A stretch of 39,307 nt of DNA from Candidatus Bathyarchaeota archaeon (GTDB taxonomy: Archaea; Thermoproteota; Bathyarchaeia; Bathyarchaeales; DTEX01). Location of the stretch: positions 1 to 39,307 of the forward strand of contig JAGTQA010000017.1 in NCBI GenBank assembly GCA_018396975.1, given 5' to 3'. Under the pieces are notes generated by a model. That model saw only the letters and a list, made by a program, of their open reading frames with translations, had not been told where the DNA came from and made no database searches. The translations under genes were made by a program, and so were the position numbers. Below, piece by piece: positions 35,829-39,307 of this stretch (positions are counted from its first letter, which is position 1; every line of letters begins with the position of its first letter).

Positions 35829-36383
35829 ATGGGGGAGGGTTTGATTTCTAGAGAGGGTACCGTTTTGGTTATTATCGACGTTCAAGAGAATCTTTTTCCC
35901 CTAATTTCAGATAGGGATAGGATTCTCGAGAACATGCGGAGACTAATACAGTTTGCTAAAATAATCGGTATGCCAATAGTTTTAACTGAGCAGTATCCTA
36001 AAGGTTTAGGCCCAACAATATCGGAGATTAGGGATCTAATTCCAAATATTCAGCCAGTTGAGAAGGTTGAGTTCAGCTGCTTCGGCTCAGAAGAATTTAG
36101 GAAGACCATTAAGAGACTTAATGCTAAATCGCTCATAATTATTGGGATAGAAACCCATATATGCGTCATGCAAACGGCTATCGAGGGCGCTGGGGAAGGT
36201 TTCAGGGTCTGCGTGGTTAGTGATGCGACATCCTCAAGGAGACCGGAGGACAAGCTAGTTGCTCTTGAAAGGTTGAGAGATAATGGTGTTGTAGTGGCTT
36301 CAACGGAGATGCTAATCTATGAACTCTTAAAAAGGGCCGGGACTCAGGAGTTCAGGGAGGCGCTGAAATTAATAAAGTCTTAA
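35829..36383 (+). CDS. Isochorismatase-family cysteine hydrolase
   Basis: TVLVIIDVQENLF, PIVLTEQYPKGLGPT, IIIGIETHICVMQTAIEGAGEGFRVCVVSDATSSR. Confidence 0.95.
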   Translation: MGEGLISREGTVLVIIDVQENLFPLISDRDRILENMRRLIQFAKIIGMPIVLTEQYPKGLGPTISEIRDLIPNIQPVEKVEFSCFGSEEFRKTIKRLNAKSLIIIGIETHICVMQTAIEGAGEGFRVCVVSDATSSRRPEDKLVALERLRDNGVVVASTEMLIYELLKRAGTQEFREALKLIKS

Positions 36384-36466: not shown

Positions 36467-36814
36467 ATGGTTAGAGGCTTGTTAAGGGCTTTGGTATATG
36501 GCGTGTCTGCACTCCTGATATTTTTAGGCGCGGTTTTCATGATGTCATTTAATCTTGGATTAGCCTATCTTCTAGTTGGGGTTATACTTACGTCCGTGGC
36601 CATAATATTGCTCGCGCTAACTAGGGAGAGGAAACCCATAGAAATCAGGCAGACGATATCGGTCAGTGGGCCGATAAGGGTTAAGGAGGTGCGCTGCCCA
36701 GTCTGCGGTGCAAATATAGATGTTACTAAAGTTAGGGTTGCCGCTGGAAGACCGATAGTTACGTGCGGTTATTGTGGAAACAATTTTGAGCTGACAGAGG
36801 AGCCACTATGGTAA
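36467..36814 (+). CDS. Small membrane protein with two TM helices and C-terminal zinc ribbon
   Basis: Two hydrophobic stretches then RCPVCGANIDVTKVRVAAGRPIVTCGYCGNNFEL; stop codon overlaps the ATG of the next gene. Confidence 0.75.
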   Translation: MVRGLLRALVYGVSALLIFLGAVFMMSFNLGLAYLLVGVILTSVAIILLALTRERKPIEIRQTISVSGPIRVKEVRCPVCGANIDVTKVRVAAGRPIVTCGYCGNNFELTEEPLW

Positions 36815-38400
36815 TAGCCAGTAGGCGAATTATCCTTTCACTTACAATACTCGTTTTAGTTTTAGCTATAGGCGTTTATCCGGCCTATGCCCAAGTCAAA
36901 TATAGGGTTGATAGGGAGTGGGTTCAGATATGGATAAACAAGGAGGGCTCAATAGACATCTTCTACAACATAACCATAACATATATTTCGGGGGCTCCTA
37001 AGGGCATAATCACCCTAGGGATGCCAAAAGGGGGCTTCCAAATACATTATGTCCACGATATTGATGGCAGAAATCTCACCTACACAATAATCTCTTCTGG
37101 AGACTTTTACGGCTTAGATATAGAGCTTAGGGGCCCAATTCTATTGAACAAACCCTATATAGTGATTGTTTACGCGTCAGTCCCAGAGATGGTGTATGAG
37201 GATGAGATGAATCCGGGTAATGTTGGGCTGAAATTTTATCCATCAACATTCGATAATGCCGAGGGAAAAATAGGCAACATTAGAGTTGCAATAGTCCTAC
37301 CAGAGGGGGTTAAAGAGGATGAGGTGAAATATGCTGAAAGAAGGTTTAGTAATGTTTACAGGAATGAAGAGAATCTACTCGTAGTCTACTGGGAGGAGGA
37401 TGATTGGCCGCCGGCCAAAGAGTTTTGGGTTGGAGTTTCCTTTCCCAAAAAGTATGTTAGCATAGGCCCAGACATCTGGTTCTATATTCTGGTTGGCGGG
37501 TCGATCGCAGCCTTCATAGCCATGATAGGTGTAGTCATAGTTTTAGCCTTCAGGGAATCAAGGAAGGCTAAGTATGAGAAGCCCAGAATAGCTATTGAGG
37601 CACTAGGTCCAGCTCGGGGTCTTACGGCCGTTGAGGCAGCAGTCCTCTTAGACCTAAAGCCCATCAAGGTCTTAACAATGATTCTATTCAGCCTACTCCT
37701 TAAGCGTGCAGTTGAAATAATTTCCACCGAGCCTGTGATTAGGCTTAGGAGACTGCACTATGATAGCGCCGTTGAACCCAACCTAAGATACTATGAAATT
37801 GACTTTCTATGGGCGATAAGGTCTGATGGAAGCCTAGATGAGAGGGCGCTTGCAAAATTATACCTTGACCTAAGAGACACCGTAAACCTCAAGATTAAGG
37901 GTTTCTCAAGGATCGATACAATAAATTATTATAGGGATATTGTGGATAGGGCTTGGCAGCAGGTTACGCAGGCCGGCACACCGGAGCTTAAATGCGATGC
38001 CCTTGAAGAGAACATAGAGTGGCTTTTGGCTGACGAGAGGCTTGAGGAGAGGCTGCGAATAGCATTCCCACCCGACATAATAATTTATCCCAGACCCGAC
38101 TGGTGGTGGTATTGGGGTTGGCCGCGCGGTCAGCCTCCAATCCAGACTGGTGAGGTTAAGCCGATTCCCATACCCGGCCAGGAGTTCGCAAATAATATAG
38201 TCTTGGCGATCCAGAAGGCTGCAAACAATATAGTTTTAAATGTTCAGGAGTTCGCAAACCGTCTGGTTCCAGCGCAGAGGGCGCAAATTGCTCAGAGGCC
38301 ACTGAGATACCCTAGCTGTGTATGTGCCTGTGCCAGTTGCGCCTGCGCATGTGCATGTGTGAGTTGTGCATGTGCTTGCGCCCATGGAGGTGCCCGCTAA
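36808..38400 (+). CDS. DUF2207-like signal-anchored membrane protein with C-terminal ten-Cys CxC tail; candidate precursor of a radical-SAM-modified product
   Basis: Signal peptide, beta-rich ectodomain, TM (WFYILVGGSIAAFIAMIGVVIVLAF), cytosolic domain, then YPSCVCACASCACACACVSCACACAHGGAR* (codons checked by hand). Confidence 0.85.
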   Translation: MVIASRRIILSLTILVLVLAIGVYPAYAQVKYRVDREWVQIWINKEGSIDIFYNITITYISGAPKGIITLGMPKGGFQIHYVHDIDGRNLTYTIISSGDFYGLDIELRGPILLNKPYIVIVYASVPEMVYEDEMNPGNVGLKFYPSTFDNAEGKIGNIRVAIVLPEGVKEDEVKYAERRFSNVYRNEENLLVVYWEEDDWPPAKEFWVGVSFPKKYVSIGPDIWFYILVGGSIAAFIAMIGVVIVLAFRESRKAKYEKPRIAIEALGPARGLTAVEAAVLLDLKPIKVLTMILFSLLLKRAVEIISTEPVIRLRRLHYDSAVEPNLRYYEIDFLWAIRSDGSLDERALAKLYLDLRDTVNLKIKGFSRIDTINYYRDIVDRAWQQVTQAGTPELKCDALEENIEWLLADERLEERLRIAFPPDIIIYPRPDWWWYWGWPRGQPPIQTGEVKPIPIPGQEFANNIVLAIQKAANNIVLNVQEFANRLVPAQRAQIAQRPLRYPSCVCACASCACACACVSCACACAHGGAR

Positions 38401-38402
38401 TA

Positions 38403-39307
38403 ATGGTTAAGATAGGTCTTAGGAGGCTTTTTTCTGGGAGGATTAGGCTTCCACTGTATCATTTGAGGGTTTATGATAGCGTCCATAAGGGTTTAAGGCT
38501 TCATTTAAGGCTTGAGAGGGATGGGAGCGGTGTATTAATTGTTAATGCCTCAAGGGTTTTATTCCTCAATAAGACTGCAGCTGAGTATGTTGCCTCATTC
38601 ATTAGGGGAGACAGCGAAGATGAAACTGTGAGAAAAATGGTTAAGCGCTACGATATTGATGCTGAAACCGCACGCAAAGACTACCGTGAAATCCTCTACA
38701 TAATAAACACCTTTGTGAATACACCTGATGTCTGCCCAATCTCATATCTGGGCGTTGAGAAGATGGAGCCATTCCAGAAGGAGCTGAGCGCACCATATCG
38801 CATGGACCTGGCGATAACATATAGATGCAACAATAGATGCGTCCACTGCTATGCTGGTGGACCTAGGGAGACGAAGGAGCTTACGAAAAAAGAGTGGTTT
38901 AAGGTTATGGATAAAATCTTTAGTCTTGGAATTCCACATGTTGTCTTCACTGGTGGTGAACCAACATTAAGGGACGACCTGCCAGAATTGATAGCGTATG
39001 CCGAGAAAGTTGGGCTTATATGCGGGCTGGTTACTAATGGGCGTAGGCTTAAAGATAAAGCATACTTCCAATCCTTAGTTGACGCTGGCCTAGACCATAT
39101 TCAAATAACACTTGAATCCCATAATCCAGAAATCCATGATAGAATAACTGGTGTTGCTGGGAGCTGGCATGAGACCCTCGAAGGCTTAAAGAACGCCATT
39201 GAGTCACCAATATACACCATAACTAATACGACGCTTAACAAATACAATGTTAACGACATACTTGAGACTATAAAGTTTATACATGACTTGGGAATAAGGC
39301 AGTTCGC
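38403..39307 (+). CDS. Radical SAM peptide-modifying-type enzyme with PqqD/RRE-like N-terminal domain (truncated by the right edge; not in the ORF track)
   Basis: Manual translation from ATG 38403: MVKIGLRRLFSGRIRLPLYHLRVYDSVHKGLRLHLRLERDGSGVLIVNASRVLFLNKTAAEYVASFIRGDSEDETVRKMVKRYDIDAETARKDYREILYIINTF...APYRMDLAITYRCNNRCVHCYAGGPRETKELTKKEW...VVFTGGEPTLRDDLPELIAYAEKVGLICGLVTNGRRLKD... CxxxCxxC and GGEPT motifs. Confidence 0.93.
   Translation, partial: MVKIGLRRLFSGRIRLPLYHLRVYDSVHKGLRLHLRLERDGSGVLIVNASRVLFLNKTAAEYVASFIRGDSEDETVRKMVKRYDIDAETARKDYREILYIINTFVNTPDVCPISYLGVEKMEPFQKELSAPYRMDLAITYRCNNRCVHCYAGGPRETKELTKKEWFKVMDKIFSLGIPHVVFTGGEPTLRDDLPELIAYAEKVGLICGLVTNGRRLKDKAYFQSLVDAGLDHIQITLESHNPEIHDRITGVAGSWHETLEGLKNAIESPIYTITNTTLNKYNVNDILETIKFIHDLGIRQF

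Follow-up and report, generated by a model that had tools for sequence, protein, structure and literature searches.

The window analysed here, a stretch of 39,307 nucleotides from a Candidatus Bathyarchaeota archaeon (contig JAGTQA010000017.1), ends in a conserved gene module that we read, with a probability of roughly 0.7, as a membrane protein whose C-terminal tail is a built-in RiPP-type core, together with an enzyme dedicated to that tail. The tail is always encoded beside a radical SAM enzyme of the peptide-cross-linking type, so the enzyme probably rebuilds the tail. The tail itself is likely the substrate. The features are listed in Table 1.

Table 1. Features of the archaeal module in the window and of the phage loci compared with it
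Feature	Position (nt)	Strand	Remarks
Two-TM protein of 115 aa with C-terminal CPxC...CxYC zinc ribbon	36467..36814	+	First gene of the conserved three-gene module
Tail protein gene	36808..38400	+	530-aa membrane protein with ten-Cys C-terminal tail, proposed substrate
Beta-sandwich ectodomain, residues 29-217	36892..37458	+	Model pLDDT mostly 70-90
TM helix, residues 223-250	37474..37557	+	Model helix; basic residues (RESRKAKYEKPR) next
Amphipathic helix, residues 456-487	38173..38268	+	Conserved (0.75); model helix 457-486
Ten-Cys tail, residues C504-A525	38317..38382	+	CxCxC-xx-CxCxCxC-xx-CxCxC, proposed core
PqqD-like + radical SAM + SPASM enzyme	38403..39307	+	5' two thirds; the contig end (39307) cuts the gene
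PqqD-like (RRE-type) domain, residues 50-98	38550..38696	+	PF05402, 23.8 bits, cut-off 23.4
Radical SAM core	38814..39281	+	CNNRCVHC (CX3CX2C) cluster motif
Phage loci	L158:6165-8154, L163:5099-7085, L165-L244	- (L158, L163)	phrog_1802 radical SAM/SPASM family, often beside C-terminal (Cys-Asn/Ala)n proteins

As a preliminary description of this DNA had pointed out, the translation of the tail gene ends in a ten-Cys tail (RYPSCVCACASCACACACVSCACACAHGGAR); the ten Cys lie within 21 residues. The other 503 residues of the protein contain a single Cys. The tail (PSCVCACASCACACACVSCACACAHGGAR) has the layout C-V-CAC-AS-CACACAC-VS-CACACA, in which Cys are grouped in runs of 3-4-3 across its whole length, and it contains no acidic residue (Asp or Glu). 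The same description had set the start of the region at 36467; the tail gene itself begins at 36808 as it had stated, and the earlier position belongs to the separate 115-aa gene.

The tail is the most conserved segment of the protein among 58 full-length homologues from three classes, which are 31-100% identical with a median identity of 52%. The commonest residue occupies 0.95 of the rows in columns 504-526, compared with 0.75 in helix 456-487, 0.57 in the ectodomain and 0.51 in the linker (488-503). The tail has a pN/pS of 0.05-0.09 versus 0.58 in the linker directly before it, and the remaining segments range from 0.28 to 0.47 (ectodomain 0.47, cytosolic domain 0.35). At the 65 loci whose tails match the Cys pattern, 65 distinct DNA sequences encode 15 tail peptides. 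Judged from these substitution patterns, the tail is under extreme constraint at the protein level.

The Cys columns are invariant save C504, which is replaced in a rearranged class described below, and a two-residue deletion at locus L087. Ala507, 512, 516, 521, 523 and 525 as well as Val518 are nearly invariant, as are the Cys, and positions 509, 510 and 514 tolerate Val, His, Ser, Asn or Thr. Rare variants occur at L087 (G237), L109 (G276) and L085 (G288); they comprise the deletion at L087, which leaves nine Cys, and His replacing Ala between Cys (CACACHSCACHCAC, CVCACHACAC). A DNA pattern for the ten Cys, run over 400 genomes of the phylum, matched only the tail gene family and low-complexity runs (G433, G442, G484), and its reversed control gave zero matches in the same genomes.

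The enzyme gene starts with an ATG 2 nt past the stop of the tail gene. A search of the same assembly did not recover its missing 3' part; the complete enzyme is ~452 aa long in relatives. Two of these, the Candidatus Bathyarchaeota MAGs JZ_bin_36.3 and JZ_bin_36.2 (L009 and L010), carry the same three genes with a complete enzyme. The radical SAM ORF with CNNRCVHC and TGGEPT that had been recognized at 38403 is confirmed by a Radical_SAM match (PF04055, E 7e-31), and the domain is present in 9/9 aligned members. SPASM (PF13186) also occurs in 9/9 relatives, the window's own SPASM part lying past the contig end. The Cys clusters that the preliminary description had proposed to look for in the remainder of the enzyme are thus found in the relatives' full sequences: C369-x12-G-x4-C387 and C424-x2-C-x5-C-x3-C437 are invariant and a final Cys is present in most, which matches the SPASM motif CX9-15GX4C ... 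CX2CX5CX3C ... C.

The PqqD match is marginal, being found in four of the nine members and just above the cut-off in the window ORF. The modelled PqqD-like domain consists of three strands and three helices in an RRE-like topology, and the enzyme model as a whole (pLDDT 70, pTM 0.76) comprises an RRE-like N-domain, a barrel and a C-terminal cluster domain. By profile, the closest solved structure is SkfB (2.6e-26), followed by PqqE and SuiB. SkfB is also the closest by fold (4e-14), here followed by SuiB and PqqE, with the SkfB and SuiB matches spanning 427-458 columns. The top NCBIfam scores, which include PqqE, NirJ2 and GeoRSP, are about level with those of peptide maturases; none reaches its cut-off and all lie far below, so homology does not fix the enzyme's reaction. 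Neither SCIFF nor PapB models are among the 25 best NCBIfam matches. A clear assignment to a small-molecule family had been named as evidence against a peptide maturase, and among the NCBIfam models for small-molecule radical SAM enzymes, none reaches its cut-off.

The enzyme gene adjoins the tail gene at 64 of 65 loci. A script identified 63 of these; at L116 the enzyme ORF overlaps the tail gene and had been passed over by the script's distance filter. The sole remaining locus, L091, is on a contig that stops 76 nt past the tail gene. Matches to the tail-protein profile were found in 68 of the 165 genomes of the order, in 4/81 genomes of the class of G470 and, in a third class (n = 40), in G169 only. 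Many of the surveyed genomes are MAGs. This distribution applies within the phylum, and prokaryotes beyond it were covered by a close-relative pattern scan only.

With the enzyme called present at E of at most 1e-120, 59 of the 165 genomes of the order have both proteins, none has the enzyme alone, 97 have neither and nine have a tail-protein match without a full enzyme. Among these nine, four tail proteins are cut by contig ends (G312, G154, G166, G261), the enzyme of G221 is likewise cut, G325 retains an enzyme fragment adjoining the tail gene, and the weak matches in G238 and G285 (L155, L156) are tail-less DUF2207-like proteins. Stops and frameshifts break both the tail gene and the radical SAM gene in G001 (L031:6918-8918, minus strand), which suggests that the genes of the module can be lost together.

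The co-occurrence of tail protein and enzyme in the order has a Fisher p of 1e-35, a value inflated by shared ancestry, and is owed partly to common descent of a linked module. Pairwise distances of the two proteins correlate with r = 0.96 across 52 loci; this is expected for co-inherited genes and is therefore not independent evidence. Better evidence of linkage comes from the rearranged class (L250, L251), in which the genes are inverted or reordered, with the zinc-ribbon gene in between, and are still neighbours. Its tail has nine Cys in a 2-4-3 grouping (CACVSCACACACVSCACACA). A search for homologous tails lacking a linked radical SAM gene, as the preliminary description had advised, returned none except at contig ends. 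The candidate explanation that such tails are common without the enzyme gene is ruled out by the linkage at the 65 loci, the order-wide counts and the 400-genome pattern scan.

The 115-aa zinc-ribbon gene overlaps the tail gene by 7 nt, and its homologue adjoins the tail gene at 56 of 58 loci, L250 and L251 included. By gene order, the two-TM protein belongs to the module. Among the conserved neighbours there is no small precursor ORF, no linked protease, exporter or immunity gene, and no pathway gene beside the enzyme. An isochorismatase-family hydrolase is encoded upstream (window 35829-36383, plus strand). It was dropped as a candidate member, being near the operon in the close relatives L009, L023 and L024 and not elsewhere.

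The model of the tail protein (pLDDT 71) comprises an N-terminal helix, a beta-rich ectodomain, a TM helix, a helical cytosolic domain, helix 457-486 and a disordered tail. The ectodomain fold resembles OST1/ribophorin I and the N-domains of M1 aminopeptidases (Foldseek PDB E 1e-10). The label 'DUF2207-like' given earlier holds as a weak remote match (PF09972) in four of 11 members, the best of which (E 7e-4, 23.4 bits) falls below the Pfam gathering cut-off of 24.4. No NCBIfam model, TIGR04222 included, matches the protein. The C-terminal half and the tail are predicted to face the cytosol, because an N-terminal signal/anchor helix is followed by one TM helix and then by basic residues. The cell-envelope tail that had been proposed is accordingly unlikely, since sequence and model topology put the tail on the cytosolic side, together with the enzyme. 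The peptide-maturase reading with which that proposal was coupled gains from the domain make-up and from SkfB as nearest solved relative.

Helix 456-487 is a candidate leader-like recognition segment. The succession of helix, variable linker and invariant Cys core resembles, by analogy, the logic of leader, linker and core inside a membrane protein. In the arrangement that we envisage, the beta-sandwich of the inserted protein lies outside and the C-terminal half is cytosolic. The PqqD/RRE-like domain of the enzyme may then bind the amphipathic helix, and the variable linker (488-503) would give the tail access to the active site, where it would be modified in place by the SAM radical together with the SPASM clusters. 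The most likely product would be thioethers from Cys sulfur to backbone carbons (alpha, beta or gamma), with the invariant Ala as candidate acceptors, although we give this linkage slightly less than even odds. It is favoured because the nearest solved relative makes thioethers and because Ala can serve as an acceptor, as in a RumC variant in which a sactionine joins Cys24 and Ala31 (PMC6779426). The outcome could be a rigid polycyclic cytosolic tail that is probably kept on the membrane protein and not released. The two-TM zinc-ribbon protein may serve as an assembly or functional partner.

Phage genomes offer a parallel. A pattern scan of viral contigs identified a 165-aa protein (L158) that ends in CNCACVDCDCACACVDCACACACVDCACACDCACACDCACACDCGG and whose gene precedes a radical SAM/SPASM gene by 25 nt, and L163 is similar. 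Across 80 phage enzyme loci, a CxCxCxC ORF is present on the same strand in 44 and on the opposite strand in none. Like the archaeal tail, the phage CxC-repeat C-termini (e.g., CACACVDCACACACVDCACAC) adjoin a radical SAM/SPASM gene; unlike it, they are borne by an unrelated scaffold, vary in length and often read CNCNCNC. The phage and archaeal enzymes have no specific similarity beyond the superfamily. That archaea and phages have converged on CxC tails encoded next to radical SAM genes favours the view that these enzymes act on the tail, and the parallels point to C-terminal (Cys-x)n tails being targeted repeatedly. We speculate, with the balance tilting against it, that radical SAM/SPASM enzymes perform a general maturation of protein tails, in which C-terminal (Cys-x)n runs of large proteins become polycyclic and are retained on the protein, and that this may have arisen separately in Bathyarchaeia-type membrane proteins and phage tail-type proteins.

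Achromobacter phage JWF encodes a tail-fibre-like protein, gp028 (L249:1793-3244, plus strand), in which CNCDCNCNCSC runs straight into a Hint domain. The gene lies two genes upstream of the phage radical SAM gene, and self-cleavage at the Hint domain (self-splicing type) could expose a C-terminal CxC tail. The viral-contig matches L159-L162 and L164 were rejected as Cys tails, being antisense to Gln/Ala-rich frames.

The chief rival to enzymatic rebuilding of the tail is that the tail, whether modified or not, binds metal. It would then resemble a metallothionein as a site for a metal or cluster (Zn, Cu(I), Fe-S), unmodified or partly modified, and the enzyme would alter a few residues or another substrate, finishing a cytosolic metal centre. 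In favour of this reading, thiolate metal sites typically show CxC spacing, some homologues have His between the Cys (CACHACAC, CACACHSCACHCAC), and the module includes the zinc-ribbon protein. We nevertheless regard it as unlikely: the six invariant Ala and Val518 beside the Cys, and the constancy of the Val-Ser spacer, go beyond what metal binding alone requires, and linkage to a dedicated RRE-like radical SAM enzyme is constant. Could the tail instead be a released product, a modified Cys peptide cut near the linker to act as a separate antimicrobial or metallophore? The variable linker right before the invariant core does resemble leader-core boundaries. Against this, the conserved module has no linked protease or exporter, the core is near-identical across classes, unlike diversifying bacteriocins, and 500 residues of conserved membrane protein would make an odd leader, all of which renders release rather improbable.

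An enzyme of the small-molecule or cofactor type (PqqE, NirJ or AhbD-like), with the membrane protein as anchor and the Cys tail as sulfur or electron carrier, has in our view very little chance of being correct. The PqqE, NirJ2, AhbC and AhbD models do figure among the top NCBIfam scores and the SPASM domain is common to such enzymes, but every one of these scores lies far below the curated cut-off, and conserved pathway genes do not adjoin the enzyme. To our knowledge, heme enzymes of the NirJ/AhbD type have not been reported with a PqqD-like domain, which also speaks against a cofactor role. The Cys-Ala sequence is repetitive and might for that reason be suspected of being functionless low complexity or a frame artefact. 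We attach practically no weight to this suspicion: the tail is invariant in ~60 genomes of three classes, and a chance or low-complexity product is ruled out by the encoding of 15 peptides by 65 DNA sequences and by the pN/pS of 0.05-0.09.

Modification of the tail in place would mean that radical chemistry of the RiPP type serves to make a lasting part of a membrane protein in an archaeon, and not a released peptide. With up to ten Cys in 21 residues, the tail would rank with the densest substrates of this kind that we know of. A search of open-access journal papers found nothing on the tail motif or on a radical SAM enzyme acting on the tail of a membrane protein, and we found no Pfam or NCBIfam model covering the system. 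Whether the tail is modified can be tested directly by co-expression, since the two genes are strictly paired, full-length enzyme sequences are available and the core is short and defined.

The archaeal system shares with SkfB and other sactisynthases an RRE-type N-domain, a radical SAM domain and an auxiliary-cluster domain, as well as a Cys-rich substrate encoded beside the enzyme gene. It has a full SPASM motif, whereas SkfB carries a Twitch domain (PMC6231123). Instead of a small secreted peptide, its candidate substrate is the C-terminus of a membrane protein of 530 aa, and exporter and immunity genes are absent; the short leader-core precursor beside the maturase that typifies RiPP systems is likewise not encountered. 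The tail also differs from most sactipeptides, RumC-type exceptions aside, in lacking the hairpin layout with N-terminal donors and C-terminal acceptors. It differs from SCIFF and PapB ranthipeptides in that no such maturase model is among the 25 best NCBIfam matches of the enzyme and no Asp or Glu is available in the tail; those ranthipeptides have a CX3D/E-type or six-Cys core.

QhpD is a radical SAM/SPASM enzyme that places thioethers into a protein, the gamma subunit of QHNDH (PMC8326336). Its target, like the one proposed here, is a protein and not a released peptide. The QHNDH links join Cys to Asp or Glu, unlike anything available in the archaeal tail with its lack of acidic residues, and no QHNDH genes are present here. 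Metallothioneins are short Cys-rich thiolate metal binders, whereas the archaeal Cys tail is part of a 530-aa protein. The ectodomain is like DUF2207 proteins in its weak PF09972 match, but the DUF2207-like proteins of G238, G285 and G245 (L155-L157) have no Cys tail.

The precedent that comes closest, by analogy, to a membrane protein whose Cys tail is modified is the TIGR04222/MNIO system, in which TIGR04222 membrane proteins have an unstructured Cys-containing C-terminal tail that is the proposed substrate of a linked MNIO enzyme (PMC12452194). That system pairs a non-haem iron enzyme with Gly/Ser-rich tails that are predicted to be periplasmic, and the association is loose. The archaeal module, in contrast, has no TIGR04222 match and strictly associates a radical SAM enzyme with a Cys/Ala tail that is predicted to be cytosolic.
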